Origin: Straminergon stramineum
Taxonomy: Eukaryota; Streptophyta; Bryopsida; Hypnales; Calliergonaceae
Length of the DNA: 64,000 nt
Direction of reading: 5' to 3'
NCBI GenBank assembly: GCA_963920665.1
Contig: OY987263.1
Coordinates: 46,659,218-46,723,217, forward strand
In this document: piece after piece, positions 4,814 to 25,042 of the stretch
Position numbering within the stretch: position 1 is the stretch's first letter
How the letters are laid out: every line of letters starts with the position of its first letter
Position numbers and translations under genes: made by a program
Notes under the pieces: model-generated
Told to the model about the DNA's origin: nothing
The model's input: only the letters and a program-made list of their open reading frames with translations
The model's database searches: none

Positions 4814-5347
4814 TTAGTTATGGTGGTGACATTGTGAAAATTCGGAAGCACGCAATGCCCATTTCTTGGATGAGTGCACCTGTGCAAAGCAAGGGTCTTG
4901 GCACATGAAAACAAATCCACACGCAAGGCAATACCCAGCCTACTTCCGCTTGCAAGCACAACACCTTCGGCGGATGTGTACATGGGTTTGCACATAGTGC
5001 AACACTGAGGGATTCCGGTTCCAATTGCTGCTTGTCCTAGGGAGAGAGATCTTTGGCAGTATGAGACCAAAAGCAACATTATACATGAAATCCATATGTC
5101 GCACTCTCCTCTCTCTCCTAGCACGTCGGTCATGACGATAGCAAACCCATGCATTATGAAGGACGGAATCCACAAAGAACATGAGATACTTGTGCCACCA
5201 CTTGTTACTATGGAATTGTGTAGTGTAATTTGTCCGCATTTGATCAACAAGATCCACACCTCGCATGTTGCATTGGTATTCCACTTGTTGTGGCGTAGTC
5301 GGAATCTCTTCCCTTATTCCTTTCAACCATCGGCAAGCAACCAGAGG
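4814..5347 (-). pseudogene. piggyBac-type transposase, C-terminal part (split by the giant hAT)
   Basis: The minus strand reads a DDE_Tnp_1_7 C-terminal region. The family motif around the third catalytic Asp appears as MRGVDLVDQM, followed by KWWHKYLMFFVDSVLHNAW, the usual Lys-Trp-Trp and hydrophobic helix. After an in-frame TAG at 4940-4942, a Cys-rich finger continues (CxxC, CLAC, MCQDPC, then VH), ending at a TAA at 4814-4816. The upstream part of the same gene lies at 23324-25042. Codon phase matches across the insertion: this part resumes in the frame in which the other part stops. It is broken by the insertion and by the stop, so it is a pseudogene. Confidence 0.85.
5340..5347. repeat. 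Left target-site duplication of the giant hAT
   Basis: ACCAGAGG directly precedes the left terminal repeat. The right counterpart ACCATAGG at 23324-23331 matches at 7 of 8 positions. Eight-base duplications are typical of hAT insertions. It lies within the piggyBac coding sequence. Confidence 0.85.
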
Positions 5348-5357
5348 CAGGGTTGAC
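5348..5357 (+). repeat. Left terminal inverted repeat of the giant hAT
   Basis: CAGGGTTGAC, the exact reverse complement of the right end at 23314-23323. It begins CAGGG, as in Ac-like hAT elements. Confidence 0.9.
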
Positions 5358-5505
5358 GAAAGTGAGCGTCCCGGGCAAAATCGCATCCAAAAATCGGACG
5401 TTCGGACCCTGTGCACGCTGCGTCTCCAAAGGGTAAAAAACACCGTCCGCAAATTTACCCTGGGTAAATGCGGACGGACGGGCAAGCGGACGGCTAGTGG
5501 CTAGT
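5348..5505. promoter_or_regulatory. Left subterminal GGACGG/CCGTCC region
   Basis: GC-rich terminus with several CGGACGG, CCGTCCG and CGGACG words. It contains the palindrome TTTACCCTGGGTAAA (5454-5468) and the words GGCAAAATCG and GGGTAAAAA. The right terminus carries the same ingredients in mirror order. hAT transposases such as Ac bind short subterminal repeats (AAACGG for Ac), so these words are candidate transposase binding sites; that role is inferred. Confidence 0.6.
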
Positions 5506-5967
5506 TATTTAATACAAAGCTTCAACTCCTTCAAGTAAACTTTGATTCCTTGAATGCTTTTTACAATAACATATGGAGTTATGAACTATCCTTTGTAGTG
5601 TAATCAACCAAAGAAATTGTACACTATAATTGCAATTATGAATTATCAAAGGAAAGGATTAAAGAAAAAATTCAAAATTCTCTTCACCTTGAAAATTACC
5701 AAATCTATGATTCTATGACAATCATGAAGTCAAAATTGTTGCATTCTAAATGTATCTTGCAATATATCATGCTTCATACAAAGAAAGAGGAACACAATCA
5801 ATTTTGGGGGGACTTCTTCTTGGTTTTGCAATTCAAAAAAAAATAATCATATTTTCAACATCAATAAGCAAACTCCAACTGCAATGGAAGCTTCAAACAA
5901 TCAATTGCCATTACATGCTCAATGTATCATAAGCACCTAAACACCTAAGCCTACATTCCTTGAATCT
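5506..5967. other. Spacer between left terminus and transposase gene
   Basis: AT-rich, with no gene seen. It should contain the 3' untranslated region and polyadenylation signals of the minus-strand transposase gene, whose stop lies at 5968. Confidence 0.4.
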
Positions 5968-8900
5968 CTAAGGCTTGTAATCACTATCTCCTTTCACCTC
6001 AACCTCGCTACTCTCACATCTAGTTCTCCATCGGTCATCTTCATCGCTAGATGTCTCTTCCATGTCGTTTGATGAAGATTGTACAATTTTCACTCCTTTT
6101 TGTACTTGGGTAGATGTCAATGATCTCATTGATCTACCGGTCTTCTTCTCCATTGTGGCTCTTAATATAGCCTTACCAATGCCTTCCTTAAGGCTAGGGA
6201 TTGTTTTCATTTTCTTCTTTGATCCCACTTGATAGGTATCAAGTGGGGTTCTACCCATATTCGGTCTCTTCCTTGGAGAGGTAGCAAAGGGTTGCATCAT
6301 TCTTTTTTTACGAGCTTTAATGGAGTCTTCACCCTGTGATATCTCTGCTTTTGGCGCTCCTTGAATAATTAACTGCATTGCATTCAAAGATTGCGATGTG
6401 TGGCCTAATGATTTCAAGGAATGGCGTGGTGGATGGCCCCAATGTTGAATAAACATTGAAGCCAATGTCTCATCCTTATCATCATCATCGGTACATGATA
6501 AAATGGTTCGACTTGGATTGCCTCCAGAACTCATCTCTTTCGTAGGAGACAAATGTCTTTTTCCAAGCCGTGATTTCCTTGAACCATCCAATGTCGTGAC
6601 ATCGCTTTTAAATAGTGCACGTGGAGGAGTGCTACGTGGTGGTTCGGGAGAATCTTCCATGAGGTGCATTTTGCCAACACCATTGTTGACAAAAATTGGG
6701 TTGCCTGACTCCATCAAACATGCTTCAACATTGTCTTGTACTTTGTGTGGTTTGGCATTTCCAATATTTTCTTCAACACATTTCTTGCTTGCTGATACCA
6801 CTATTGACACAACAATTCCATTGGACACGTTCATTTCAACGTTCACCTCACATCCTCCTTTGTCTTCATGTTGGTCATTTTTTTCTACCGCCATTATCGG
6901 GGATGGAGCATCGGAAATGGGAATCACTTCATCCTTTTCAAGACTCCCATCATTCGCAACCGTTGTCCTATTGGTCGCCCTTATCTCTACATACGTATCC
7001 TCCACGTTTGATAGAAGATTTTTGCTACTCATGAATCCGGTTCCATCCACAAATCTAGCTATCGAAGGTACATCATCATCAAGCCTGCAATCATCCTCAT
7101 CTGATCGAAACTCATACATGTCTCCATTCGTGACTCCGAAGTCTTCATTGTTTTGATTAGGAGTCTCAAACATTTCTTTGTCAGAATTGTACATATCATA
7201 ATTCACAACATCTCTATCATCAGATACAGATTCATCATCCTCGTCTTCCGAGATAGGCCCTTCCGAATCTTCGGACTCCACATTGTCATGGTACCACTTC
7301 TTTTCATCCTTCTCGTTCGATGCGGCTATGACTTTGGAATTGGTGTATACATACAGCAAATCGGTTGCTTTCTGTGGCCTCAACTTGTTTCGGGATTTGT
7401 TGTGAACAAAAGAGTAGCTACTCCAATTTCGTTCACATGAAGATGATGACACCGGTTGGGCCAAAATCCTCTTTGCAATTGGAGCAATGAGCTTGCCACA
7501 TGCACCTTCAAAATCCCACCAAGCATGTGCCGACAATTTCTGCTCAGCCGGATCCAACAGGTCGTGGAACGGAGGATCTTGATGTCGAAATGCTACAAAT
7601 TCCTTCACTACGTCAGGATAAGTTCCTGGTTGACATATTTTCCTGATAATGCGCTTGCATGCATTTGTTGCATTTTGATCATCAGCTAGTTCTTTATTGT
7701 GAAGAAGGTAAGGATTCAAAAGAGTTCCTGCATAATGTAGATCGGTCTCTACCATTTCCCGTCGCTTACCAAACGCCTTTTCGATAGGAATGGCTAAGTC
7801 CAAGGACAAACCAAAGGGCTCTTGTCGTAAAGAGAAGACATGCTTCTCTAAATTCCTCATGATATGCAACACCTTGCCCATGCATGGTGTCTTTGCATCC
7901 AAATTACGTAGACCAAACACCACAGGAGCCATCAATTCTCGGAAATTAGTGGCACGGGCCCAAAAATGCTCATCTAAAATTGTCTTCTTCACCTCCTGAG
8001 ACTCCGTACGAGATTTTGTGTTCTTTGTGTCCCGTAACTTGAGCACATATTCTACCCATTGTGGATCCACCACACTTTGTTGCAATCTAGTCTTGACCTT
8101 CAACAAACGAGAAATCATGAAGAAATTGGAGGCAAATCTTGTTTTCACCGACATCAATAAGCTATTCTTCGTTTCGTGCGTTTGAAATATAGCTAGTAGC
8201 ATATGCCGCAATCGGAAGAACTTCACAACGGTTTGGGCCTTTTCCACTAGCTCCTTCAACCATTCTTACTTCCCCCAATCTTGAAGCAACAAATTCAAGG
8301 CGTGCACCACACAACCTTGAAAGAAAATGTGTGGATATTTACTCGACACCATATTCCATGCTGCCGGTTTTAGAGGAGCAATGTCTGTAGTCACTTGCAC
8401 AACATTTGTAGGGCCTACTTGTTCTATAAACTTTTCCAAGATAGAGGCCAAAAAAGGAGCATTCTTTTCGATTCCACTTGTATCCACTGATCCTAGAAAT
8501 TGTTCATCCGCAGAAGATACAAGCATGGCATTTATCAATGGTCGATTGGTAACCGAGCTCCATCCATCAATAGACAATGTTGCTCCAAACTTCCGAATGC
8601 TATCTTCGGTCCGACTATGAAGCTTTGTTTTGATGTCGGTCTTCGCTTAGTCAAGCAATTTATGGTGTAAATCATGATACGATGGTGGAGCGTAGGGCCC
8701 ACGATACTCGGCTGTTTTTTTCACTGCTTCTTTAAATGCCGGATTTCGAGCTACGGCAAATGGTATGTTTGCCGCATAGAAGAAATTGGCCCACACTACA
8801 TTCAAATTGTGTTTTGCTGCGGAATCAAAGCCATCGACTAGACTACTCTGTCTTTGAAGTCTACTACCTAATGCCCTTGGAGTATCACAATCACTGGATG

Positions 8901-9276
8901 TTTTTGTAGTTTGGTTAACTTCGGATCCTACACCAACAAATTCTTCCGGTGCTGCGCATGAGTCCTCTTGAGTAGAACGCGCCATATCCCTCTCATTTGA
9001 AAAATCCCTCCCGACCATATGCATGCTACCAACATCTACATTGTCAATGATTGGTCTCTACGGGAATGCCCCATTAGATCGAAGAAATAGGATTCGAACA
9101 TCTGGCATCAATTGCAAACAAAGACTCACTCTTCTATCACGAACACCTGATGGGCCTTCATATCCTAAATGGCTCAACATATGGCTTATCTTCTTCGCAA
9201 ACACCGAGTTGCAAGCCTTGTACTTTACCTTACCGGTTGATGCGGTACCATACCAACCAGACCAATCCTTGCTCAT
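5968..9276 (-). pseudogene. hAT transposase, 1,102 codons, three in-frame stops
   Basis: The first ATG is at 9276; the frame runs without introns or frameshifts to 5968, interrupted by TAG (9058-9060), TAA (8647-8649) and TAA (8266-8268). In order: a BED-like finger at residues ~16-45 (YKACNSVF...HMLSHL) with an incomplete Cys pair; a DUF659/RNase-H-like core with SIDGW (Asp 237) and VTTD (Asp 298); and a hAT dimerisation region at ~588-649 with SSSSCERNW (Glu 616). These three acidic residues are plausible catalytic DDE positions. A tail of about 450 residues follows, with acidic runs and Lys/Arg-rich patches, unlike the usual 600-800-residue hAT protein. Family sequence continues directly on both sides of each stop, so they are mutations rather than introns. 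Each could derive from CAG or CAA by one C-to-T change. It is presumably the former mover of the giant element. Confidence 0.9.
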
Positions 9277-9589
9277 AGTGGCAAGGCACAAATTTTAATT
9301 CCGTATATTGGAATTAAATTCAAAATGTGAAGACCAAATGAACAATGTCCAAATATAATAAAAAATGAGTCCATAAAGCCTTGAAAATCAAGGCCCTCTT
9401 GTCCACTGAACTATACATTACCAAGCAAGGGACACAAAAATTGCAGCTCCTAGCCCTTGGAAATCTTAGCGTTCAGTTTTCAAGAGTGCTCTCAAATGAC
9501 TTCTTTCCTACAGTTATAGTCTCCCAAATAGGCCTGACCGTTGCAGACCATTTTTGAATCTACAGAACATACTATCCACCGTCACCTGA
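9277..9589. other. Spacer upstream of the hAT transposase
   Basis: Probable 5' leader and proximal promoter of the minus-strand transposase gene. It contains no other coding sequence that I can recognise. Confidence 0.35.
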
Positions 9590-9840
9590 TTGCGCAGCGG
9601 CCGGCCGGTCCAGCGGTCGGGCGGTCGGTTTAGTTGGGCGAACGGCCGGTCCATCGGACGGGCGGTCAGGCCTACGGGGGTTGGGTGGACGGACAAGCGG
9701 ATGGAGTGACGCGAAGACACACGGACGGGTGGATGGATATTGCGGACAGGTGGACGGGAGATTGGGTGGACGGGAGGTCGGGCAGACAGGAGGTTGGGCG
9801 GACGGGTGGTTTAAGGCGGACGGGCGGGGTAGGTCGTGTT
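9590..9840. promoter_or_regulatory. Internal GGACGG island upstream of the transposase gene
   Basis: About 250 bp crowded with GGACGGG, CGGTCGG, CGGCCGG and similar CpG-containing words, in sharp contrast to AT-rich neighbours. It starts about 310 bp upstream of the transposase ATG. The same words occur at both ends of the element and before the other three genes, so a shared promoter or binding role is inferred. Confidence 0.55.
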
Positions 9841-10247
9841 CAATTGTTCAAATGTTCAATGCTTCAATAGATGTGGGACAAAATAGGGATTTATGGATGG
9901 AATGAGCCAATGAGGAGATTTTTGAAAATTATGGTTTTATCAAAGGGTCTTATAATTTAAAATTTCTAGATGAGCATGAAAAAACATACTTCACAAAAAG
10001 TTGTTCTTTATAAATCACCATAGCATGAACTTAAAAGAAAGCAAAACAAATGATTAATTCAAAGATATATATATTGATATTTCATATTTGGATATATAAA
10101 GAACTTCAAAACAAATCAAAATTCATCATGAGTACAATGAATTACTAGTAGTACTCAACCCTTATAACATTCAAGCCACACTCACCAGTATACTTCTATA
10201 CTATTAAACATTTAAACATAATAAAATAAGGAAAGTCTCTCTTATAC
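9841..10247. other. Spacer between island and RING gene 3' end
   Basis: AT-rich. It is likely to include the 3' untranslated region of the minus-strand gene that ends at 10248. Nothing else is seen. Confidence 0.35.
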
Positions 10248-13200
10248 TTAAGAACCACTATCCTCTCCTACATCGTGAGATGGCCCCTCCTTAGCCAAAA
10301 GTCTTGCACTCATTCGTCGAGTATTTGACGCAGGACTATAGACAACACCTCCTCCGGATCTAACCTCCATGTCCACCGCTGTAAATTGTCGTTTGGTTTC
10401 CGGAGAGTGGTCATTGTCATCGTCATCCTCTCTCTTCTGTTTTGAGCTTCGCTTTGGAGACAAATCTACTTCTTCAACCTTCAAGGCCCTCAACGTAGCA
10501 TCCACTCGATCTACGAACACATTGACTTGTTCGTCATCAGCTTCGATGGGTAACCCTATTGGTCGAAAATCAGCCAATAGAAACCCCCTCCATTCAGCTA
10601 TAATGTCACCTATCCTCTTGTCAAATGCCCCAGCTACCTCCACAAATGAATGCCCTGTAGTTGTTTCCCCATCTATTTCAACAAGAGCACGAGCTTTAGC
10701 AACTTCTTCCAACTTTGACAAGAAAAGGGCCCTACCAATCAAAGTGTGATTATAAGCCCCGTATTGCTCATTGAACTCTTGAGCATGCTCCACCTCTATC
10801 CAAGTTTTTTTGGGTCCTTTTCGCACTTCTTTGTCGGGAAACCGAAAAAACTTCTTGTGTTGCACACTCCAATGGCCCCCCATGTTGCGACAAAACAATT
10901 CACAAGCCTCGCCATCTTCAATACCCCGGGCCCGCAACTCCACCTCTCTGTTAACGGTCATCCACATGAAAGGATCCACTGGCTCTCCAGACTCCTCATA
11001 CAATCCATGTCAGCATTCAATTGAATCCCACGTGAGAGGTCGCCCCTAATGCGAGAAATTCTGGAACTGGTATGGCCCTTGATCAAGAGGAAGGGTCCAT
11101 CGGTTGTATTTATGGCCGGGGGGCATATCTTCCAAGATACCAAGCATTTCATAGAACCGAGGGCTCAGAGGAGAACGACACTCGGCACAAACCGAACGAA
11201 TGAATGATGTTTTCACGATGCATATCACGTGAAAAGTGTGGTGACATTGGCCCATGGTTAGGGCTCCTTCAGGGCCAAAAGGACCTTGGCAAAGGCTACA
11301 ATGACTCTTCAAGATTCCTGGGGCTGGATTGCAAGCATGCACTACTGTCTTCTCTTTCTCCTTGATGTGCGCTGAAAGTGTGTTGTAAGGGATCCACCCT
11401 TCCTCTACTTCCAAGGCCCAATCGATGTGTGCAACATTGTCCTTCTTTGCATGGTTCAACCGCTCAAACATATCATCCATGTCCCCCCAACATGTAATTT
11501 CCGTGGAACCCCTTGGATGTTCATTAAACACTTTCTTGAATCGAAGCAAAGAGGTCTCCACGGCATTGCATTCTTCATCCGACTTCATTGCCAATTTCAT
11601 AAGCCCTTTCATTGCTTGAGATACTACAGAGGGTTTGTCTTGGAGTTTCTGTACCCATGCCAACCATCGAGACTCTAATCCGCTCTTCGGCATGCATTCC
11701 TCCATGCCCATGATTCTTTGAAATCGGTCCAACTCCACCTCAACAAGGATTTTCTCTTGAATTGCTTCATCTAATTTCAACTGTAGCTCCTCCACCTCAC
11801 TGCCTTTCGTTTGTGTCGAAGCATCCTGCAATGTACGGGAAACATTAGGAATGATGGTCCATACTGCTTCTTCACATTTCTTGTCATTCCCAACCTCATC
11901 CAAATTCAAGATGATGGACGTCTCCACCGCTTTTGCCTTCTCAAAAGGAAGAGAGAGTTGATCACTCTCTTGACTTTCTTACACAAATGGAATGATCACG
12001 GAGTCCATGGTAGGCCTACCCCTCTTCAACTCTTGTACTTCGAGCTCCAATTCTTCGATGCGCTTTCTTTGAACCACCTTGTTACAACGTTCGTGCTCCA
12101 TGTTTTTCTGCGACAACTGCAGCTTCATTTCCAAGTCCTCACACTTCATCTTCAGCCGATGAATGTCTTCCTCTAAGGCCATCAAACTTTTTAAGTTCAT
12201 CACGCCACCTTCAAGAATTGGTGCCACTTTCTCAGTAAAATTGCAAAAAGCCAAGGCACCAGTCAACAATTCAGGTGCCATTTTGGAAAATTCCTCTGCC
12301 ACGTCCCTAACCCAAGGAGTAATTTCAGCTACCATTTGAGCTGAAGTTCTCAATTTGTATGCGGTTTGCGAAATAGTACCCCAGCCACCTTTTCCTACGG
12401 GCTGACTAGAATTGCCTGCCTCATTTTCGGGATTAGAATGAAGATGTTGTTCTGCTAGTACTCGCCAATGACTACAACATTCTAATAGCTTTTCCAATTG
12501 ATTGGTGGTGGGTATGGAACAAAGAATCTCCAATTGAGCCGAGCTTAAAGTTGCCAAATGTGGATGCCCTCCAGTCCTTGCACTTAATATTTGTCTTGGG
12601 CTCAACCTTCGACTTGGGCTTACGTTTTGATGCGGACTCAACATTCGAATTGGGCTCAATGTTTGGCTTCGCCTTGGTGTCATTGGCAGTTGAGAAATCG
12701 GAGTTGCATATTCCACCAAGCTCTCAAGAGCTTTACTATCTATGTAACCCTAAATTCTAGCATTGGTCCTTGCAAGTTGTTCCTCATTGACCTCTCCATC
12801 TGGCGAAAAAGGTGACCCACGTTCTTCTACCAATGTTTCCTTGTTTGCAGCCAAGTCTACACTGCCCAAGGTTGTTTCATTCGTTGTAGTTTCCTTGCTT
12901 GGAGCCATGCTTTGTTCACCCAATGTTATCACATTCGGTGTGGATATGAAGCATGTTGGAGGAGTTACAAAAACCTCTCCGCCGACACCCCCCGAGGAGA
13001 CATTGCTCACTTCCGTGCAAGGTTGTGCCACTTCTGCGGGCCTTAATTGTACTGCATCACCTAAAACCTTGGAGACCTTTGTTGTACGCGTTGTAGTATT
13101 TTTTAATACTTTTGGGGTCTTCATTGGTTCACTTGGTTCTGCCTGAGAATCGTACAAATCGGGGATGTCTTTTTGATTGGGTTGCAGTAAAAGTGGAGAA

Positions 13201-13640
13201 TCCACCTTGGATGGATAAGTGCTCCAATCTACCTTGCGGTTTAAAATGAGTTCTGCATACACCATGGACGCCACACTATAATTTATGCATCCCTTACTCC
13301 TTGGCTTGTTCCCAAATAGCGTCCGCCACACCTCCTCTGATCGATGCACAAAATGTTTATTGTTGCAATTACGTGGCTTACAACAAAAACCATGTGTATG
13401 CACCACGTGGCAATCCCGAGGCCACAACTTGTCAATGTAGTACATTTTAACATACTTCTTGCATGTTTTGAAGGTCCAATATTCCCCTTCCTCCTCCTCC
13501 CAACCGCTCTCCGCTTTGATGTTCGGGTCATCTAAAATCTTATAGTAAAGCCCATGAGGGGCCCCCTTCGCTTTAGTCCCTCTCTTTTTTTCACCTCCTG
13601 AAGTCCTCCCGTTGTTGGTAGGAACACCTTGATCCGCCAT
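10248..13640 (-). pseudogene. Large cargo gene: TCKKYVKM domain, coiled coil, RING-H2 (1,130 codons, four stops)
   Basis: One continuous frame from ATG 13640 to a stop at 10248, without frameshift, broken by TAG (12750-12752), TAA (11979-11981), TAG (11046-11048) and TGA (11010-11012). Residues ~45-140 form a Cys/His-rich domain (TCKKYVKM, WPRD, CxxxxHFVHR, NYS...AE...VDW) shared with the gene at 16900-17997. An SP-repeat segment follows at ~320-350 and a Glu/Lys-rich coiled coil at ~485-547. A complete RING-H2 pattern comes next (Cys 781, 784, 799, His 801, 804, Cys 807, 818, 821), then a basic/acidic C-terminus (SPKRSSKQKR, then an acidic run). RING-H2 proteins are usually ubiquitin ligases; the substrate is unknown. 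GTAAGA at the second stop resembles a splice donor, but the frame continues smoothly, so a mutated stop is the simpler reading. I know no family with this architecture. Confidence 0.75.
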
Positions 13641-13854
13641 GATATATGATTAGAATTTTTGAGCCCTTCGAAAAATAGTACCACTGCACATGAATACCGT
13701 GAGATGTGTGTAAATAAGTAACAGCGTAAATCAGCAATAGTAACAAAAGTTCAAGGACCCCCACTCTCCACCGTGTAGGAGCAACTAACACATAAAGCAG
13801 CAATAGCACATCCAACCTGGCACCGAAGGAGAGTAGAAGTAAGAGCAAATGAGG
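13641..13854. other. 5' leader region of the RING cargo gene
   Basis: Short stretch between the start codon at 13640 and the GC-rich island. It is a probable transcribed leader; no separate feature is seen. Confidence 0.35.
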
Positions 13855-14220
13855 AGGCCGTCCCCCCATATACCCGTCCGCCACCAAACCTAAAAAACGT
13901 CCGCCCCGAAGCGGACCCGGACCTGCCGTCCGCCACAGCGGACGCGGGGCAACCGCTGGGATTGGTGGACAGGCACCTGTCTGCCCGCTTCAGTGGCGGA
14001 CGGCCAATTGTCCGTCCACTCTGGACCGCGACCGGACCTCCCGTCCGCTAATCGGAACTACAGGTCGCTCCTGGAACATCCCGTCTGCTCAGGCCGTCCG
14101 CCATCGCCGACCGACCCTGCACTTGGCTGTCCGCTCAGGCCGTCCCCCGTTCCCGACTAATCACATCCAGCACTATTCACCTCGCTATGGAGCCCACCTG
14201 ACGTCAGTCCGCCGGCAGTC
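13855..14220. promoter_or_regulatory. Internal CCGTCC/GGACGG island upstream of the RING cargo gene
   Basis: About 365 bp of CpG-rich sequence with many CCGTCCG, GTCCGCC and CGGACGG words, beginning some 215 bp upstream of the ATG at 13640. AT-rich DNA resumes abruptly at about 14220. It is equivalent in position and composition to the islands before the other cargo genes. Confidence 0.55.
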
Positions 14221-16019
14221 CTAAAGCATTGAATTCTGAGAAGGATAGATTCATGTACAAAAAATACTCTTGAATGCTAGAAGTATCCAATGTAATATTA
14301 ATGTAAGAAAAGATAATTCCAAATATTCCTTCCCACATTTAAACATGCTCTCCAAAGTCCAAACCCTATACCCTAAATCCTAAACCCTAACCCTCCAAAA
14401 AAAATCAGAATTATACAACCCTCAATTGTACATATTGAATTTATAACATTGCACAAATTTTCAAAATTATTGATGCGATGTGTGAAATATGTTTTACCTA
14501 TGAGACTATGATTCCTTTGCAATTTGGAATGCAATCATGACAATATAATGCAGATGTAGATCTTTCTTACTTTGTCATGTACTCATGTGAGTACATTACT
14601 CATGTAGGTTTCAATTTTTCTTAAGATTGAGCACCTCAATTATCACTTTATTATGAGCCATTAAAGAAATGTGGAACATTCAATTATAACTTGGAGTGTG
14701 TCTTCAATTTTTGTTGTCAAATGTATTCATAGTTTAAAACACCAATATGAAATTATGAATAGACTAAAAGAAATTATATTATCTCGTTATTCTATTATAA
14801 CATTTATCGAATGTATGGGATGGTGCTAAAATGATTCAAGCATTTTAATGTAATGTGAAATGTTGCGGACAAGATTAAAGTAAGCATTTTTACAACAAAA
14901 TGAATTGAAAATTCATATCATATACACTTTGACACTTATACCTATGTATACTTGTGTGCATCCTAAATTGTAAACCGATCATAAATTGATCACAACCCCA
15001 AAATATTAGAGCTTAGGTAATGTACAATGTGATTGACCTTCAAATATGATGAGTTTTCAATTACAAGAAATTAGAAATGGTCATACTTCAATGATTACAA
15101 GTGTGTTTCATCTCAAAATTTTTTTGCAAATAATAATATAGAAAGGTTCATAATATCATATCTTTTAAATTATAAATTTACAATATTGATTGAATTGTTT
15201 ATGTTAATTTTGTAGTTATGTAGGCCTAGGATTTTCTAAAATCTGGAATCCCTAAAGCCTTCATGCTTTTTTGCCCATCAAATATCACTCAAAACTCCCA
15301 TTTCAAATGCAAAGAGACAAAAATTTTAAAAATTGATTTTTGGGCATATTTAACCATAAGAATTTATACTAGACTAGTATAAAAGTTAATTGAGTTATCT
15401 TGTCATCTTGAAAACTTTGAGTACATACATTGCACGTGGTATTTGCATTTAAAGTAAGCCCAAGAAATCTTTTCTTCCATCTTGCTCTACTAGATTGTTG
15501 GGCTTCTCATTTTCTTCACTTTAGATTTTTTACATTAATGAATTTCATTTTACAATATCTCGTGTTGAAAAATTTAACTCTTGAGTGAAGAATCTTGAAC
15601 CAAAAATTTAGAAATAAATCATTTAATTGAGATCACATATCACAAGAGTCTCGTATAAGAGTGTAGCTGTGTAGGGCCTTTGGGAGTTTAGGGATTCATT
15701 GTTTTCCTTGAAAGGCATGAAAAAGAATAATAAATATTATAAATTGAACCACGAAGGCTTTTGTTACGATCTTAACATCGAATTTCTTTTTCTATTAGTC
15801 AAAAAGTATTGTTGACATCACAAACTTGTACAAAAGCACCAATGTACAACAAAATTTCTTTACACTTATTTGAATTCTTGATTTACAAGTCAAATGATTT
15901 TTCAAACAAGAGACTTTGGGATGTCACTTTTGATAGTTGTATCAATTTAAAACCTCATGACATAACATATTAAAAATAATTTCTCTACTTTTCTTAATTC
16001 ACCATATAATACAAGCTCT
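14221..16019. other. Central AT-rich spacer of the giant hAT
   Basis: No gene is seen. A degenerate CCCTAAA-type telomere-like stretch lies at about 14361-14395. From about 15230 the sequence (CCCTAAAGCCTTCATG, then CACTCAAAACT, then CCATTTC) resembles the left end of the TTAA/CCCC element at 21590, suggesting an old relic of that family. The segment separates the two divergently transcribed halves of the element. Confidence 0.4.
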
Positions 16020-16580
16020 CCCGCTAAACCGTTCGTCCACCCATCTCCACATAGTTCAAAACACCTCTCCCGCCCATCCGCCCGTCTCCCAATTCAGAAA
16101 TTGAAAAACTCCTCCCTCTCTCCTTCCCTCCCAACTCACCCCTCCCATCCCACGCTTCTCTCCATCCGGCCGACCGCTCGTCTGCCCAACTAGCTGTCCG
16201 CCCATTTGCCCAAGTAAGGATTCCGAAATTGAAAAACACCTCCCTCCCGCGGTCCCACCACCTCTGCCCTCTGACCTTCCTCTCCGTCCGCCCATCCGGA
16301 GTCGCCGTTCACAGTCGCCGTCTGCATTTCCCGTCCGCGTCCGCGCTGCTCCGTCTGCTTCTTGTTGGTGACCGTGTGATCTAGCAGACCGCGATTTCGG
16401 ACCGCCCGATCTTCCCGTCCGCCTTCGTGCCATCCAATGCGGACGGCAGCGTTCGCATACCCTAAAGCGCTGACCGCATAAATGGTGGCGCAGACGGCTC
16501 ATTTCTTCACAATCGTTTCCCTTCCGGAGTGGGTGATCCAGTGCCTTCAGGAATCTGCGCGCCCCTTCCGGCTTGGTGCG
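16020..16580. promoter_or_regulatory. Internal CCGTCC island upstream of the intact cargo gene
   Basis: GC-rich tract with CGTCCGCC, GTCCGCCC and CCGTCCGC words, ending some 320 bp before the ATG at 16900. It is the counterpart on the other arm of the divergent pair of the island at 13855-14220. Confidence 0.55.
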
Positions 16581-16899
16581 TGAACGATTGTGTTCGTATT
16601 ACTTTTTTTTAATCGGATTGGTTTGAGTGATTAGGGGGCTGCCCCAACTTATAAGTCTTTAATTTTATGAACTTCATTTAGTGTTCTTAATTACTTGAAC
16701 AGTGTTTGAGTTGATTAGGTTGTCAGAAACTCAAGGTGTTCAAGTTTATGGTTGATTTGGTTGTCAGTAACAATAGGTGGAATTTGTTTTAATCCAAATT
16801 CTTACTTTTCATTTGGTACATTGGGCCAAAGCGGGCGGAAATTGGATTTAAACTTTGTAATCCTTTCGGTTCATTACTAATTGAGGTTTTGAGGTTATT
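16581..16899. other. Leader region of the intact cargo gene
   Basis: Spacer between the CpG island and the ATG at 16900; probably the transcribed 5' leader. No other reading frame or motif is supported. Confidence 0.35.
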
Positions 16900-17997
16900 A
16901 TGTCGCGCAGAAGTGGTAGTGGAAGTAAGAAGGGGAAATCACAAGAGATCAATTGGAGAGATTTGGAAGACATAACTTGCGTTGCGGAGAAGGGATGGGA
17001 AAAGGAGCCCAAGAAAATATGGGATTGCACAACATGCAAGAAGTACGTCAAAATGACGCACCTCTCCAAAATATGGCCACATGATCGCGTAGAGGTGCAA
17101 GTTTGTCGTTGGGAGGGACAAATGTCCACATGTAAGAGCGAACACTTTGTTCGCCGCTACGAGGAGATAACATCTGCATCAGGTTTACCAAGCTCCAAAC
17201 CAAACGTCATGAACTATTCGAACATGGCTATGATTTGGGCGGAGATAGTACTCCATAAAGAAGTAGATTGGCGCACGGTTGCAGGGCGCAATGTCAGGAA
17301 TTTGACTCGCGAGGAAGCCATAATTCCTACTAACTGGGTTGGACCAAGCAATTGCATGTCAGAGTGGTCCAATCAAGGCTATGGAGGACTTCCTTCGGTC
17401 GTCTTGAAGGATACTGAAGATGATTGGTCAAATGAAGATGAAGATGATGATGATCCAGCACCCGTGACATTTGGTGAGAGACATGAACATCGAGAAGATC
17501 GGGAAGACATTGAGTACCAACAACAAATACAAGAGGCCATGCGTCGAAGTGTGGAAGACCGGGGTCGGCAACATGATGGATCCTACTACCATGACTATAA
17601 TGCATGTGGATCACGAGATGGGACAAGTGGTTCAAATTATGGTAACGCCCCCCAAGTTGGCTCTCAAAGTATAGGAGGAAGCCATGGACCGACACACTAT
17701 GGTCAGTATGGTGGTTCTAGCCAAGGAGGCTCTCAATACTACTCTAGATCGACTACACATGGTTCATATGGGCATCAGGGAGGCCCTTTTTATGGCGGAT
17801 CAAGTGAAAGAGGGTCCTGGGAGAGTGCTCCAATTCCTCCTCCAACCTTTGGAGGTCCTTCTTATGGAAATGAATATGGACAAGGAGGTGCATCAAGTGG
17901 ATATGGTTACAACTATGGGGGTGGACCATATATTGGGGTACATCCTTCAGGCCCAAATGACAAGAAGGATTCGGATTCGGATTCGGATTCCGAGTAA
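16900..17997 (+). CDS. Cargo protein: TCKKYVKM domain plus Gly/Ser/Tyr-rich tail (365 aa)
   Basis: Intact, intronless frame from ATG 16900. Residues ~25-130 share a domain with the RING cargo gene at 10248-13640: TCKKYVKM (45-52), WPHD, two further Cys, HFVRR.EE and NYS..M..AE..L..EVDW. Conserved Cys and His suggest metal binding. An acidic run (EDEDDDD) sits near residue 185. The last 140 residues are Gly, Ser, Tyr and Gln rich with many SYG, GGS and YGG repeats, like prion-like tails of RNA-binding proteins. It ends in Asp-Ser repeats resembling casein kinase II sites. It is the only one of the four units in the giant hAT without stops. It is transcribed divergently from its paralogue. I do not recognise the family; a nucleic-acid or regulatory role is inference. 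Confidence 0.75.
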   Translation: MSRRSGSGSKKGKSQEINWRDLEDITCVAEKGWEKEPKKIWDCTTCKKYVKMTHLSKIWPHDRVEVQVCRWEGQMSTCKSEHFVRRYEEITSASGLPSSKPNVMNYSNMAMIWAEIVLHKEVDWRTVAGRNVRNLTREEAIIPTNWVGPSNCMSEWSNQGYGGLPSVVLKDTEDDWSNEDEDDDDPAPVTFGERHEHREDREDIEYQQQIQEAMRRSVEDRGRQHDGSYYHDYNACGSRDGTSGSNYGNAPQVGSQSIGGSHGPTHYGQYGGSSQGGSQYYSRSTTHGSYGHQGGPFYGGSSERGSWESAPIPPPTFGGPSYGNEYGQGGASSGYGYNYGGGPYIGVHPSGPNDKKDSDSDSDSE

Positions 17998-19074
17998 AGT
18001 AGTTAAATAGAGTATGGTATTCTAGTCATCTTATGTTTGTTTTACTATATGGTTCACTCATTGTAATGTATATAGACGGTAGAGTGCGGCAAATATAGCA
18101 CAATGCTCTTGATGAGTTGTAATCACGTTTTTGTGATTTTGATACAAATACATTGTATTTTTATATTTTAATAAAGTGATATTTATGTCACGTAATTTGT
18201 AGGATTTAATACCATTGATGTATGACTATGGGTTAATGGGTATTTGTGAAAATGGAAAATGTATTGAACCACTTTCTATAATTTTCTCATTTCAATCATT
18301 CACTGTGAATAAGTGAATTGCAAATGCAAAGGATGTTCCAAATATACAATAGAGGTTTGTAGAATAGTGAGAACCACCATTTTAGTTTCATTTGCTATTA
18401 GAAATTGAACCCTAAACCCTAGAAGTCCGAAGGCTTTTTTCCATCAAAGACAATTTAGTGATTTAGAATTGCCATTTCAATTACAAAGAACTAGAAAATG
18501 TAGGAACAATGTTTTTGGCATGTCGGATTGTACGATTTTGTACTATAGCAATTTATGAATGTGTAGAAGTAATTTCAAAAACTTAACCCACATAGATTGT
18601 AAGATATTTGGCTATTTGCATTCAAGGTGACTGAAACAAATGATTTTGCTATTTGCTTTACTAGATTTTTGGCTTCTAATTATTGAAACAATAAATATTT
18701 CCACTTGTGAGTACGATTTTATAATTTTGTATGTTGAAGACTTGAAGAATTTATATGAGAGCATGAGAATGTAGGAAGAAAAATTCCCCCAAAAGATGTT
18801 TAGTTTTTATTCATAAGAGAATTGATAAGTTGAGTATATTCAAGATAGATACTAGAACATTAATAATTTTAAGATAGAATTATGTAAACATGAGAATCTC
18901 AACAGTGAGAGTATTTCAAACAAGCAAACATCACCGGCTATTCCTCTATAATTTTTTTTCATTTCCATGATAGATGATTTACTTGATTCTTACTTCGGTT
19001 TGAAACTGAAATGTTGAATATGATACCTATGTTTGACTTAGAGATGTTCAAGAGAAATTAAAATCTCCGATCGT
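17998..19074. other. Spacer downstream of the intact cargo gene
   Basis: AT-rich. The first 200 bp should hold the 3' untranslated region; TTTTAATAAAG near 18165-18175 is a possible polyadenylation signal. Around 18400-18500 lies another diverged relic resembling a TTAA/CCCC element end, with ACCCTAAACCCTAG beside it. No gene is seen. Confidence 0.4.
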
Positions 19075-19465
19075 GCAATTCATCTCTTCCGTCTTCCTCG
19101 TTTCATCCGTCTGCCGTTGCCGGACAGGCTGCTGCATCCACGCCATCCACACCGTCCAATCGTGCGGACAGCCTGCCGTCCGTCCGATTGGAGGAGGTCG
19201 CGACGTTCGTGACAAGCCGGCCATCGGATTTGGCGGATGCCAATTATCCTGCTGATCAGATGGCCGGCTTGAGGTGAACGGATGACCGTCCGCACGGTTG
19301 GAAGGTTGGCTCAGGGCGAACGGAAGACCGTCCCCGGAATCGAACGGCCATCTCGAGGTGGTCGGAGTGCGGCCGAACAATCGGACGGCGGCGACGAGGC
19401 GGACGACCACGAGGAGGCGGACGGGGACGAGCCGTCCGCCCCGTATAAGAGGGGCGGACGGCCCG
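19075..19465. promoter_or_regulatory. Internal GGACGG island upstream of the kinase-like gene
   Basis: CpG-rich tract with CCGTCCGTCCG, GCGGACG and GGCGGACGG words, ending about 190 bp before the ATG at 19653. A TATAAGA at 19444-19450 within the last part is a candidate TATA box for the downstream gene. Confidence 0.55.
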
Positions 19466-19652
19466 TCCACAATCACTTTTGCCTTGCCCCTTGCGTTTTG
19501 CAAGTGTGGAGTGGAGAGCTTGGTAGTTCGTCCTCCATTGGTTCCTCTCCTCGGGAAGGTGGAAGTCTTATTTGGGGGCCCCACTATTGCCATTTTTTAT
19601 AGTGAACTTCGAAGTTTTAGTTACAAATTTCGGGTATTAAAAATTTATCACG

Positions 19653-21134
19653 ATGCCAAGATCGAAGAAGGCGGCAAAGGGAAAACAAGTGGTACAAGAG
19701 GTGGAAAGTAAGGAAATTCCATCCGATGCATGCAAAGCATTCATGACCGAATGAATTGCAAAATTCTATGAATTGGAAACCACTGTGTCTCTTGACACAA
19801 AATATGTAAGATATGGAGAGGAGTGTCCATCCAAATTCAAGGCAGACATGACGCAAAGAATGTTGGATGCCTTATACGTTCCGCAATGGCAACATGAGAT
19901 GGAGAGGAGGGGTTTCAACAAATGTTTGGAGAACAAGGTGCATGATGCATTGTGGAACACTGATGTGGTTCTCGGAAAATACGGGAAACAACATCGTGCA
20001 AATGATGAAGCCTTTGAGCAAGTCATTCTCAAAGCTCAATTGTTTATTGGGTGTTGCTCCCCATTTGCGAAGAGGCGTAATAGACGAGGGTCTTTGGGTT
20101 GGTGGACTAGCGATGAGGATCTTGCTCAATTGGATATGGGTAGACATCATCTTATAGCGCTTCCGGACACCGCATAGGTGATTCCCCAAGATGACTTAAT
20201 CATGAAGGGAGGATATGCAATGATTTGGAGGGTGAGAATTGAAGGATGTCTAGGGATAGCTCCATCTTGGGAGTTCGCAGCAAAGATATCCAACCACCAT
20301 GGTACGCAACCTCAGCTTGCAAAGTTGGAACATCAGAATGAATCAATGGCAGTGAGGATTCCACATTCAGGAGTCATACGATTTGTTGCAGTTCGTGCAA
20401 GAACAAATGAAGGGTATTCGTATTGGTGGAATGGCGGAACACTTCGGCAAATGTTGAACCTGGATAACGATTATCTAAACAACATATATGTTCGGTTATA
20501 GTATTCGAACCCAACAGAGTCCGATGTGACTAAAGCTTTTCATCTCGCTTGATTTCGGAAGAAGCGCACCGAGCTTGCTTGGGCATTGGTGCATATCATG
20601 AATGCGGTACATGTGTCTAGACATCTACACAATGATATTTCTCCAGACAACATCATGTTTCATTTTCCTGATGATGAATCACGTGTCTACATTGGAATTT
20701 GCGATTGGGGCATGACTACTGTAGCTACCGAACCAATGAAATCCTTGTATACGTTCACATCTACAAGTGAAATGAATGAAGCTTTAACAAGGAGGTGGTG
20801 GGTGGATCCAAGCATTGCATATTTGCATAGAAGAGATGCAAATGTAGAAATCATTCCACATTTATCACGTGCATCGGAGGAATATGCGATTGGTAAAATA
20901 GCTCAAAGGATCAATAAACAATGCATGTTAGAGAACTACAACAAATTGCAACGGGAAACAAATGCAATGGCCATGTTTAGCCACCACCAATTGGGAATTG
21001 TGTTTCACCAATACTTGGACCGGCTTTGTCAAAGAGGTGATGGTTATCGGGGTGGTTTGGCCCACATCATCAATCGGTTCACTAGCCAATTCAATTGGCC
21101 TATGCCGGATGGACACTTCCGACATTCGTATTAG
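19653..21134 (+). pseudogene. Protein-kinase-like cargo gene (493 codons, four in-frame stops)
   Basis: One continuous frame from ATG 19653 (MPRSKKAAKGK, a basic start) to 21134, interrupted by TGA (19752-19754), TAG (20175-20177), TAG (20499-20501) and TGA (20550-20552), with no frameshift. Kinase-fold landmarks appear in order: a glycine-loop-like KGGYAMIW (186-192), Lys 211 in FAAKIS, a hinge-like WWNGGTL, a catalytic loop HNDISPDN (Asp 328, Asn 333) and DWG replacing DFG (Asp 351). All core catalytic residues are therefore present, although the gene is broken. About 170 residues before the kinase region match nothing I know. Every stop could come from CGA or CAG by one C-to-T change. Kinase genes are not normal hAT cargo; it may be captured host sequence or a long-term component. 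Confidence 0.75.
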
Positions 21135-21589
21135 TAATATAGTGCAAGAGTGTACTATATAGAGTTTTATAAATATTTAATAAATGTAGAACTTTGGATT
21201 TATGCATGTAGATTGCTTAGTATATATGCACCCCTAAAGTATGTCAATATATGTGAAATTGGACATACATTTTGAATTTTTCCATGTATTTGAGTTGTTT
21301 TTGAATGAGTATCAATTTTTGACAAATCAAAAATATCTCTTATTTGAGTGCAAAGTGCAATATTTCTTCTTGAATGTAGATGGTTATTTAGTTGACAAGC
21401 TTGTATGACAAATTGCATGATGTATGATGTGTGGGTGCAAAAGTTTTTGAGCCCGTTCTATTTCATTTGGAATAAGTCTTGGAAGAAGACCATTTCATTT
21501 ATGATATGGAATTACTTGGACCTTCTTAGAATTTGTGTTCCAACAATTCCATTGATATTTGAATTATGATGACGACCCGTTAACCCCTA
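21135..21589. other. Spacer after the kinase-like gene
   Basis: AT-rich 3' flank of the kinase-like gene. No coding or repeat signal is recognised before the nested TTAA element. Confidence 0.35.
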
Positions 21590-22508
21590 AAGGACCAAGG
21601 CCATTTTTCTGTCAAAAAACACTCAAAACTGCCATTTCTGCTGCGTTCACCTATAAAATCCCCAAAAAATAGTTAAAAAAAAATCTAACCGTTGGATCTT
21701 GTACTTTATTTGTCTCAGAACATGTGGTAAAAATTTCATGAATTTTGACCGCACAGATTGAGAGATATAGCATTCAAAGTTGGAAAAAGAAGTTTTTTTG
21801 AACACTGGCCTGCAATTTCAGATGACTTTGACCACCTTTTGTTGAAATTTTTTGCACTATGGACTGTGAATTTAAAATTTTCTGTGTTGAAGAATTGAGT
21901 TGATGTTCTAGGAAAAAAAATTCTAAAGAAAAACTCTTGATTTTCATTCTCTAAAAAATTGTTAAGTAGAAGTAGGTCCAAAATTACATGAAAAACTAAA
22001 TCATTAATAGCTCTAAGATGGGATTGAAACTCAATAATCCCAATGGTGAGATTGTTTTAGCAAACAAATTTAACTTTGTCAAACAATTTTTTTTGAAAAA
22101 TTGTGAAAATTGCATTCAGAAATGAATCCTATAAGTTATTTTTTCAAGAAGATGCTCATATTGCCTGAAAAACAATATTGTTCATAACTTTCACATTACT
22201 AATCCAAATGGAATGAATCAAATCTTCACATGTAGACAAAAGTATAATCTATAAGAAAAAAGAAATTTTAAATTAGATTTCAATTTTTTGTGGATTTATT
22301 TTTCTACCCGTGACATGAAAATTATGTTTAAGATGGCATAACTTTTGCTCCCGGGCACCGATTGAAATAAAAATTATATTCCCACGAGCTTATCAGTTTT
22401 TCTATCTTATGAGAAAGTTTCAAAAAGTTTGACTAAAAATTGAAGTGATAGGAACCTGCCCGAAATCCATTTTGTCCCTCGAGGGAACAATGGTCCTTTA
22501 GGGGTTAA
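21590..22508. mobile_element. TTAA/CCCC element nested in the giant hAT (copy 2)
   Basis: A 919-bp element flanked by TTAA. Its ends are CCCCTAAAGGACCA and the inverse TGGTCCTTTAGGGG, the best-matched inverted repeat of the family in this window. It lies between the kinase-like gene and the right terminus of the giant hAT. It has no coding capacity. It must have inserted after, or moved along with, the giant element. Confidence 0.75.
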
Positions 22509-23059
22509 AGCAATTGTGGTTTTATTGTTTTAGTGTATATACTTATAATGAATCAACTATGAAGAGACATAATTAGTAAATTCATCACAAATGAGAGTGA
22601 TTCAATTTTACTGTTTTTTCAAAAAGGTTTAGGACTTTATGGCACTTGGATTTTTAGAAGCCTTTGGGTTTCCAATTTAGACCCTCAATTTTTTTTCATT
22701 GCATTGTTTTCATAAAATGAACAAAGGAAAATAGGAAATTAAGCTCTAAATGAATGGGTTACAAAATGTATGTGTGTCCAATATTTTCCTAAACCTGAAA
22801 CCATAATTAATTTGTTATTTTGAGTACCGGTTCTTTGGATATTTATTAAAAAAATCCTTTGAAATTCTATTGCAGCACTCAAAAAATGAATTACGAAAAT
22901 AAATGACTTTTCTCTTTACAAATTTGTAAAGTGCAATGTTCTTTTTGTTCATTGCTAAGGACTCTTAGAAATGAGCATGAATTGTACCAAATTTCAAAAA
23001 TAAAATCGCATTAGAAATTCTCCTAGAATAAAAAAATAAAGATAGAGACAAAATTCGGG
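22509..23059. other. Spacer before the right terminus
   Basis: AT-rich with no gene or repeat recognised. Composition switches sharply to GC-rich at about 23055. Confidence 0.4.
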
Positions 23060-23323
23060 GAGTCTTAAGCGGTCGGACGGGTTGGCGGACGGGCTCCAGA
23101 GACCGCGGACAGGGTTGCGGACGGGTCGACAAATTGGCAGACGGGCTGCAAAATCTGCGGACGGGGTCGCAGAAACCGCGGATGGGGTTGCGGTCGAGGT
23201 CGGGGACGGGCGGACGGGAAATTACCCCAGGGTAAAAACCCGATTTTGCGAATGTCACAGGACGTCCGGGGGGGTCGCAGACGCGGATGCTGGCAGCTGC
23301 GTCAGGACGCCCTGTCAACCCTG
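23060..23323. promoter_or_regulatory. Right subterminal GGACGG region
   Basis: GC-rich end with a run of GCGGACGGG-type words at roughly 10-25 bp spacing. Then come TTACCCCAGGGTAAAAA, CGATTTTGCG and GTCAACCCTG. Read from the end inwards, the order of TIR, CAAAATCG, TTACCC..GGGTAA and the CGTCCG array mirrors the left terminus. This supports it as the partner end and as a candidate transposase-binding region. Confidence 0.65.
23314..23323 (-). repeat. Right terminal inverted repeat of the giant hAT
   Basis: GTCAACCCTG, an exact inverse of the left CAGGGTTGAC. Confidence 0.9.
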
Positions 23324-23331
23324 ACCATAGG
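23324..23331. repeat. Right target-site duplication of the giant hAT
   Basis: ACCATAGG directly follows the right terminal repeat. It matches ACCAGAGG at 5340-5347 except for one base, and it encodes the same codon phase of the piggyBac gene. Confidence 0.85.
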
Positions 23332-25042
23332 CCCTGTAGGATAAATAGATGTGCTAAAAAATGCAACCATTTTGGAATCATACCAAACCAAGGCTGCCAT
23401 TTTCCTACTTGCATGCATGGTCCAAAATAGAGTAGACCTAGGGTGCTCCCCTTTCTTGAATCTCGTGAGAGCTGAAGGGAAGCCTATACGATATCCCTTT
23501 ACTGTTTCTGTAGCAAAGATACCCCGTCTTAGCAAACCATCAAACAAGAAAGGAGAGTAGAAGAAGTTGTCAACACAGACACTATGGCCTCGGTTTTGAA
23601 GGCCAACTGTCAACTGGTGCACAATTCGCTCGCCCAAGCCTGCTTCTGACTCTCCATCTCACTTCCCAAGGTAAGGAATTACGTTCCAAATGTAACCACA
23701 GTCTGGGCACACAGCAGCCCAAATCTTGAAACCATAGCACATGGGTTTTGCAAGCATGTACTAACGACAAGGTGAGCGGAAGCTACGGTAGGCAACCATA
23801 ATTTCATCACACGTCAACTACTTTCTCAGGGTTGTATACACTTTGTGACATTGTCATAAAATGCTCCAATAACCATCTCACCTTGAACAACTTATTATAT
23901 AGAGGGTCTTTCTTATCACAACATGCAGTGGTGTTATCAATGCAGTGAATGCAGCACAAAAGACTCTCAAAACGATTTCTCAAAAATACCAAGGGAATGA
24001 CCCCACAACGCCAAAAAATATCCTCCCACCAATAGTCCTAGATTGATGGAGAAGTCTTTAGGCCCATCAAAATTGTCACTCCGAAGAAGGCTCGAATTTC
24101 CAATCTCGTTGTTGGAGTCCATCCTGGGCCCCCATTCGACCATGTTGGTCTGCCTCTTTGTCTAGGGTCATTGAGGTTTGTGCATTGCTGATTGGTGTAG
24201 GAGTTGGTCTTCGAGACAATGCAATCAACACACATGTCGTCAAGCCACAGGTCAAAGAATGAGCAAGCACTGGGCTTATTTTGAGTGTGTCGTTTGTGTA
24301 GGTCCAGGAAATGGACTAGTGAAGCTAGATTGATCGCTGATCAACAATGGACGTGTCTGGTCCCATTGAGAGTCCCAATACAAATGCCGAATTCTCTCTA
24401 CAGTAGCGACTTGGACTGGGTCTATAATGTGTATTCACGGTATCTCTCCATGTCTAAAGGCTCATTCTCAATATATGGAATATCTTCGTCATCAAGCAAA
24501 AGCCAATCTGAATTATTTTCATCGGATGAGTTGTTACTTGTGAAGTCCGGTGCCCAACTCATGTCCCGAGAATCTATGGTCCACCCATTGCTCGCATCGA
24601 GAATATTGACGTTTGTTGGTCCTTGGAATGGTTGCGGAGGTGTGCTGAATTCGTCCCCACTTCTTGAAACTCTGATGGTATTGTGGAATTCATCTGCTCC
24701 TACCCCGACTTGGTTCTACAAATGTCCGATTGAGCCTTCCTGATCACTTGTAGGGCTCCTTCGGTCCTTTAATGAAGTCAGTGGCAATTGTACAGTTGCT
24801 CTGACCACTAGCTGTGGACGCCAATTTAGACACATATCTTTCGTTGTAGTTGGAGATGTTCGTGGCTCCTCCGTAGCCAGGTCAATGATTGATCCAGCAT
24901 ATTCCCCTGCAATTGCTACATTGTCGAATGCACTTTGTAGGTTGATGGCACGTAGGGCTGGAGAAGGCACCGAATGTGCTCCCTGAATTTCCGACTCCCT
25001 TGTCGTCCCCAGGGGTGATAACTGGTTCTGGTGGATATGCAT
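23324..25042 (-). pseudogene. piggyBac-type transposase, N-terminal and central part
   Basis: Minus strand, from an in-frame ATG at 25042. A ~200-residue poorly conserved region with acidic stretches (LLLDDEDIPY) is followed by the DDE_Tnp_1_7 entry motif (TPTTRLEIRAFFGVTILMG), FLRNRFESLL, a region around the first catalytic Asp (DEIMVAYRSF), KPMCYGFKIWAAVC, and the second catalytic Asp in VCVDNFFYS. It reaches FFSTSIYP just before the hAT insertion. Damage includes in-frame stops, among them TAG at 24716-24718 and 24038-24040, and a one-base frameshift at about 23807-23809. The C-terminal part is at 4814-5347. Allowing for the frameshift, the two parts give a whole number of codons, about 747. 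It is more decayed than the hAT inside it, so it is older. Confidence 0.85.

Follow-up and report, generated by a model that had tools for sequence, protein, structure and literature searches.

hAT elements are usually seen as minimal transposons, each with one transposase gene and two short ends. The question raised by the locus described here is whether a member of this superfamily can also keep, as functional parts, a set of additional genes. The locus lies in a stretch of 64,000 nucleotides from the moss Straminergon stramineum (GCA_963920665.1, contig OY987263.1, positions 46,659,218 to 46,723,217), hereafter the window. At positions 5348-23323 of the window there is a complete hAT element of 17,976 bp (no strand assigned), delimited by its ends, its flanks and its other copies. 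There is next to no doubt about its structure: a unit of about 18 kb whose ends are fixed, which is flanked by 8-bp target duplications and which carries, in a constant order, a hAT transposase gene of its own and three more genes. It is also very probable that this autonomous-type, high-copy element is a true hAT with four genes and that the accessory genes work as parts of it.

Ends and insertion site

The element begins with the terminal inverted repeat CAGGGTTGAC (5348-5357, plus strand), and an exact 10-bp match of it closes the right end (23314-23323, minus strand). The left target-site duplicate ACCAGAGG (5340-5347, plus strand) and the right duplicate ACCATAGG in the other flank (23324-23331, plus strand) are identical at seven of eight positions. 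When the flanks are joined with one duplicate kept, an unbroken frame of the piggyBac-type transposase family DDE_Tnp_1_7 runs over the junction, and hence the element did insert into another transposase gene. The interrupted gene lies on the minus strand, its left part at 4943-5339 (expect value, E, 7.5e-7 for DDE_Tnp_1_7) and its right part at 23332-23658 (E 1.4e-12). Exact 10-bp inverted ends, 8-bp duplications with one mismatch and insertion inside another transposase gene had all been proposed in an initial annotation of this sequence, and all three were borne out. A further piece of a DDE_Tnp_1_7 gene is found at 24041-24340, and the remains on the minus strand span 4943-5339 and 23332-24340.

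Within the window, exact matches to CAGGGTTGAC are confined to the two element ends. With up to one mismatch, five matches occur against 3.26 expected by chance, and the end pair alone is therefore little proof of an element. Hence the ends were compared against other genomic copies.

Copies of the element in the genome

The genome searched was an assembly of 326 Mb in 59 contigs. Its match lists hold the best-scored part of the candidates, so that all copy and pair counts are lower bounds. The left 253 bp of the element gave at least 40 matches (40 scored of 313 candidates), which are 89-94% identical when the window itself is excluded. Thirty loci were fetched, one of them being the window, and in all 29 others the homology begins at the left terminus (BLAST start 1496-1502, terminus 1501) while similarity of the flanks was reported at none. 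The sequence CAGGGTTGAC is identical in 23 of 30 left ends, the window counted, and the remaining left ends carry variants of it.

Ten copies, with 20 kb taken from each, were compared with the window as a set of 11. Both ends were reached in six of the ten, which together with the window gives seven complete copies of 17,862, 17,915, 17,976 (window), 18,180, 18,364, 19,753 and 20,265 bp; in the other four the right end is missing or lies beyond the fetched stretch. The six align to 96-99% of the window element and the four to 24-85%. Target duplications are identical at eight of eight positions in cL003, cL004 and cL006, at seven of eight in the window, cL007 and cL013, and at two of eight in cL010. 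The locus of cL010 (G000:C6:21261447-21280758; L045, L046) has no matching duplication, and the start of an inverted second copy adjoins it.

The ends share more than the terminal ten bases. A palindrome lies near each end of the element (no strand assigned), TTACCCTGGGTAA at 5455-5467, 108 bp from the left end, and TTACCCCAGGGTAA at 23222-23235, close to the right end; across the whole window these are the only two sites of the subterminal palindrome. Likewise, TTACCCTGGGTAA or a close variant is present at base 107-115 in all ten other copies, and a palindrome is present near the right end in all six copies whose right end was fetched.

A search with the right 300 bp returned at least 51 rows (40 scored of 253 candidates). 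For end pairing 39 of the 51 were used, the 12 omitted being partial pieces, mostly second pieces of places already listed. From the 40 left ends and these 39 right places at least 15 pairs were obtained, ten of which span 17,872-19,752 bp. A kinase gene is present on the expected strand within all of these ten and within three of the five longer pairs. The initial annotation had advised a search for further copies with ends about 18 kb apart and 8-bp duplications, and such copies exist, with six of the seven complete ones showing duplications of seven or eight matching positions. It had also warned that the same ends might be found beside unrelated interiors. This is not what the copies show, in view of the alignment of the complete copies given above and of the four genes held by nine of the 11.

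The four genes and their linkage

When the majority base is taken across the window and as many as ten copies, the four genes read as single-exon open frames of 1102, 1130, 365 and 493 codons. The hAT transposase gene (5968-9276, 1102 codons) and the RING-finger protein gene (10248-13640, 1130 codons) lie on the minus strand. The glycine-rich protein gene (16900-17997, 365 codons) and the protein-kinase-like gene (19653-21134, 493 codons) lie on the plus strand. The window copy is disabled, with stops in the transposase, RING and kinase genes, and its glycine-rich gene is open. Using tblastn, all four genes were found in identical order and on identical strands in nine of the 11 copies. In the fetched stretches of the other two the right-hand genes are absent, cL005 having the transposase and RING genes and cL016 the transposase gene only; the kinase gene is partly covered in cL002 (0.41) and cL008 (0.86). 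The content of four genes that had been annotated at first, and its recurrence as a unit of about 18 kb, were thus upheld, but not the description as two divergent pairs, as two leftward genes are followed by two rightward ones. More genes were sought in the spacers by majority base, and intergenic open frames starting with ATG reached at most 181 residues, the longest lying inside stretches rich in the motif CGGACGG that is described below.

The linkage of the genes was tested across the genome for transposase and kinase. Among 43 transposase places scored of 1148 candidates (two of the 43 without internal stops), 21 have a kinase gene in the arrangement of the element at a distance of 10.3-29.6 kb, compared to 10.4 kb in the window, and two have a kinase gene in any other arrangement within 35 kb. 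With random placement, for which two contig sizes were guessed, the arrangement of the element turned up 0.2 times per trial on average over 500 trials, and three times at most. The test used 96 kinase places from searches that scored 83 of 780 and 87 of 753 candidates. The distance from the left end to the transposase gene is 610-642 bp in 19 pairs. Of the 83 kinase copies scored in the former search, 20 have no internal stop. Two kinase copies with identical scores are located 50 kb apart in opposite orientation (G000:C11:14209916-14211406, plus strand, and 14261231-14262721, minus strand), and this pair is perhaps an inverted duplication of the region.

Families of the encoded proteins

The assignment of the element to hAT follows from its CAGGG ends, its 8-bp duplications and its transposase. 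The transposase matches the Pfam families DUF659 (E 2.8e-27) and Dimer_Tnp_hAT (E 2.3e-9), both above the cut-off, and both families were matched in all 18 homologues scanned. In the majority reading we find the motifs IDGW, DN and CER, which the alignment of homologues shows to be conserved and which we take to be candidate D-D-E catalytic motifs. A pattern of cysteine and histidine residues is presumably BED-like, although Pfam called no zinc finger. The dimerisation region is followed by a part of about 450 residues that closes with a conserved SSGAEVKGDSDY-like tail. This acidic C-terminal tail is kept in many homologues while the preceding ~400 residues vary greatly, and it is a possible docking or modification site. 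A sequence search of the PDB with the transposase profile gave no match.

The RING protein is likely to be an E3 ubiquitin ligase. Pfam RING models match it weakly, the match to zf-RING_11 (E 6.9e-5) being under the curated cut-off, and the eight RING ligands are invariant across all 11 homologues. The AlphaFold2 model of one RING homologue had a predicted local distance difference test score (pLDDT) of 44.8 and was left unused for fold searches. In a single comparison, the glycine-rich protein shared 39% identity over 116 residues with the N-terminal domain of the RING protein (E 7e-26); therefore the RING and glycine-rich genes share an ancestor in that part.

The kinase of the window matches Pkinase with an E of 3.9e-6, under the curated cut-off, and the family was matched at E <= 0.01 by 21 of 22 kinase homologues scanned. 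The AlphaFold2 model of one homologue, P0001, had a pLDDT of 80.9 and a predicted template modelling (TM) score of 0.58. Its comparison with PDB kinases by Foldseek gave a probability of 1.00, a best E of 3.0e-7 and a TM-score of 0.51 by target length. The N-terminal ~165 residues of the kinase form a helical region. A PDB sequence search with the kinase profile found weak matches only (best E 0.0024). The residues K, D, N and D, which we assume to be those of the active site with their known roles, are invariant in 22 aligned sequences.

Relatives in other organisms, selection and decay

At a cut-off of E <= 0.001 in protein searches, homologues were found for the kinase (51 sequences, 31-96% identical, 28 of them covering at least 96% of the query), the RING protein (11 sequences, 37-54% identical, five covering at least 98%) and the transposase (32 sequences, 35-64% identical, nine covering at least 97%). 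Alignments were made from 22 of the 51 kinases, all 11 RING proteins and 18 of the 32 transposases. In trees restricted to kinases above 450 residues and transposases above 900 residues, the window family groups with P0001 (kinase, support 86/89) and P0064 (transposase, support 82/74); therefore the window family is one branch of a broader clade. Of the kinase homologues with a named source organism, two belong to the moss Ceratodon purpureus, one of them representing 126 member sequences. When the C. purpureus kinase P0034 was used as a genome query, the matches of 41-44% fell nearly all at known places of the family (87 scored of 753), which implies that there is no intermediate kinase family among the 87 scored.

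Three outside contigs appear to link the transposase with the RING or kinase gene in relatives whose transposases are 44-58% identical. Transposase P0063 and RING protein P0053 have the same source and longest-contig size (17,649 ena), and the same is true of transposase P0069 and RING protein P0055 (8,444 jgi) and of transposase P0071 and kinase P0035 (27,639 ena). Among contigs above 8 kb, such a coincidence was observed for two of three with RING, one of eight with kinase and three of ten with transposase.

The kinase homologue P0005, on a contig of 1,380 bases, matches 69% of the query at 96% identity, which means that a public data set contains DNA of this or of a very closely related species. 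P0004, which is 68% identical, is filed under a metagenome bin of Bacilli and is probably mis-binned plant DNA. A scan of prokaryote contigs found no kinase relatives.

The copies differ from the majority base by 2.0-3.8%, and C-to-T or G-to-A changes make up 62-83% of the substitutions. An excess of these changes is expected for methylated repeats. The ratio of nonsynonymous to synonymous changes (N/S) relative to the neutral expectation is 0.61-0.68 for variants in at least two copies and 0.78-1.19 for singletons.

Clusters of the CGGACGG motif

The noncoding DNA of the element contains a short motif, CGGACGG or its complement, with 29 sites in the element and a single one elsewhere in the window. 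In first-order random sequence the expectation for the element is a mean of 0.62 and a maximum of 3 in 200 trials. All 29 sites fall within six clusters, which lie at both ends and ~190-620 bp upstream of each gene start. The clusters at the left end (5443-5493) and the right end (23074-23217) have four and five sites, respectively. Similarly, there are four sites upstream of the transposase gene (9655-9823), five upstream of the RING gene (13874-14100), four upstream of the glycine-rich gene (16284-16446) and seven upstream of the kinase gene (19176-19461). In the ten other copies, all 228 CGGACGG sites are inside the same six regions; the six complete ones among them have no site in the fetched flanks, and in every one of them the last 400 bp contain one site or more.

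Five of the six clusters are placed in the fastest-changing noncoding stretches of the element, where alignment coverage is low and the mean divergence is 0.09-0.17, compared with 0.02-0.07 elsewhere; the stretch of the left-end cluster has a divergence of 0.05. The presence of one motif at both ends and at every gene suggests, as a candidate, one DNA-binding protein encoded by the element.

Proposed mechanism and alternative explanations

The hAT transposase would excise and insert the element by cut-and-paste, as knowledge of the family, the ends and the duplications suggest. The target gene, whose frame runs on once the insert is taken out, is an indirect sign of transposition. The CGGACGG clusters at the ends and upstream of the genes may be recognised by the transposase or by some other protein of the element that has a zinc-finger-like domain, and in this way one regulator could couple excision with transcription of all four genes. 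A zinc finger of the transposase would be the simplest candidate binder; the domain common to the RING protein and the glycine-rich protein would be an alternative. The kinase, the RING protein and the glycine-rich protein may tune the transposase or blunt host silencing. Regulation through the shared motif is given a chance slightly below even, and the roles proposed for the accessory proteins are more tentative. Equally tentative is the full proposal of a multi-gene hAT lineage kept across mosses as a self-contained regulon, in which there would be one element-encoded reader of CGGACGG, and the kinase and a ubiquitin ligase would have the transposase or host silencing as their target.

Several observations weigh against this interpretation. 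In each of the 11 copies at least one of the four genes is missing or carries a stop. Exact CGGACGG sites are no longer left in the transposase and RING clusters of cL006, the RING cluster of cL002 and the left-end cluster of cL005. The six regions, with a 60-bp margin, take up 3,864 of the 17,976 bp and were drawn after the window had been seen, sites were assigned by nearest aligned base, and the copies are related; hence the 228 sites of the other copies indicate persistence and not independence. The coincidences of source and contig size are indirect, and seven of eight kinase contigs and seven of ten transposase contigs above 8 kb are without one. The N/S pattern would fit constraint on an active lineage followed by decay after insertion, and it gives weak support to this, because shared C-to-T changes can recur.

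The stop codons in at least one gene of each of the 11 copies would also be expected if an ordinary hAT of ~4 kb had acquired host genes from its neighbourhood, which were then amplified as inert cargo of the enlarged unit. The capture of gene pieces is known for plant DNA transposons such as Pack-MULEs and Helitrons (PMC6431247, in the portion available). Such passenger capture is nevertheless improbable, in the face of four open frames that are complete by majority base, homologues that span nearly the full query (28 of 51 kinases and five of 11 RING proteins), and 20 of 83 scored kinase copies without an internal stop. Further, the same motif cluster is upstream of all four genes, and transposase and RING genes as well as transposase and kinase genes appear on the same contigs in diverged relatives. 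The large size and the several genes, among them a kinase and a RING protein, might instead recall a fusion of a transposon and a virus, of the Teratorn or Maverick type, driven by a hAT transposase. This is very improbable, as the element has four genes only, none of its 14 pieces scanned with Pfam matched a viral polymerase, capsid or packaging family, and two scans of viral contigs found no relatives of the kinase or the RING protein. The idea that the ends are fortuitous and enclose a segmental duplication, or unrelated elements nested in one another, draws on the weakness of a single exact 10-mer pair. It has a negligible probability and is refuted by the common terminus of all 29 loci in unrelated flanks and by the target duplications of seven or eight matching positions in six of the seven complete copies.

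For the mechanism alone, there is another alternative to a transposase-bound motif. An accessory protein, either the RING or the glycine-rich one, may bind CGGACGG by way of the domain that both possess, and this binding would relieve the element of silencing. In Arabidopsis, the VANC proteins of VANDAL transposons bind to short motifs arrayed as rapidly changing tandem repeats in the noncoding DNA of their own element (PMC5735166, in the part available). The clusters described here are likewise noncoding, with five of the six in the fastest-changing stretches. The likeness to VANC is by analogy, however, and the clusters also adjoin both ends of the element, as sites of a transposase would; this alternative is rather unlikely. 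The reading of the element as a genuine four-gene hAT is the same under either mechanism.

If the regulon proposal is true, the element would be a transposon that moves by cut-and-paste and brings along its own system of post-translational control. The shared CGGACGG motif offers a testable link between transposition and the expression of the element's own genes, and the kinase is a handle on the interplay of parasite and host signalling. There is also a practical aspect, since annotations of moss proteomes may count genes of the element as host genes, for example the single Ceratodon kinase with its 126 members.

Other features of the window

Outside the element, an open frame at 36737-38074 has F-box and Kelch matches and is probably a host gene. 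Another at 48319-49047 has a match of the Bet v 1 or polyketide-cyclase type and is possibly a hormone-receptor-like gene. At 30784-30808 there are 3.6 copies of the plant telomere-like unit TTTAGGG.

Comparison with known systems

The element shares with the hAT superfamily (Ac, Tam3, Tol2) the short ends of CAGGG type, the 8-bp duplications and a transposase with DUF659 and Dimer_Tnp_hAT. Its duplications match at eight of eight positions in three complete copies, seven of eight in three and two of eight in one. Its exact inverted ends of 10 bp are inside the range of 5-27 bp given for hAT terminal inverted repeats in an excerpt of PMC12506042. It differs from the usual hAT in its size of ~18 kb, its four genes, its accessory genes with relatives elsewhere and its repeated motif. 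For comparison, Tol1 and Tol2, which encode a transposase, are 4.4 and 4.7 kb long (PMC10175614, as excerpted). The initial annotation knew of no plant hAT of this kind. This view is supported by the entries listed in searches of open-licence literature, curated repeat libraries excluded, which named no such multi-gene hAT; the scope falls short of Repbase, Dfam and most subscription papers, so that the novelty is supported and not proven. In the available portion of a review on giant eukaryotic transposons, the word hAT occurs 0 times.

Teratorn has a herpesvirus part, and Teratorn and Maverick carry viral polymerase and capsid genes. Teratorn and the Starships resemble the present element as multi-gene eukaryotic transposons, and both are much larger. 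As given in excerpts of the literature, Teratorn measures 180 kb and includes a piggyBac-like transposon, and Starships use a tyrosine recombinase; the corresponding family DUF3435 had no Pfam match in the 14 element pieces. The fungal ToxhAT is alike in being a large cargo-bearing class II element formerly called hAT. It spans 14 kb, is now named ToxTA and has been re-classed as Tc1/Mariner, having a TA duplication and a single copy and being probably non-autonomous (PMC12506042, excerpt).

The element also resembles VANDAL with VANC, likewise a plant DNA transposon that has accessory proteins and in whose noncoding DNA a short motif forms clusters. VANDAL belongs to the Mutator superfamily, different from hAT, and Mutator and VANDAL elements have a 9-bp target duplication and a MULE transposase. 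The 8-bp duplications and the hAT domains do not fit this group. The accessory proteins differ as well, being here a kinase, a RING protein and a glycine-rich protein, and the clusters here also adjoin the ends. A conserved four-gene hAT would show that this superfamily, too, can evolve and keep an accessory toolkit, as VANDAL has done with its anti-silencing factors.

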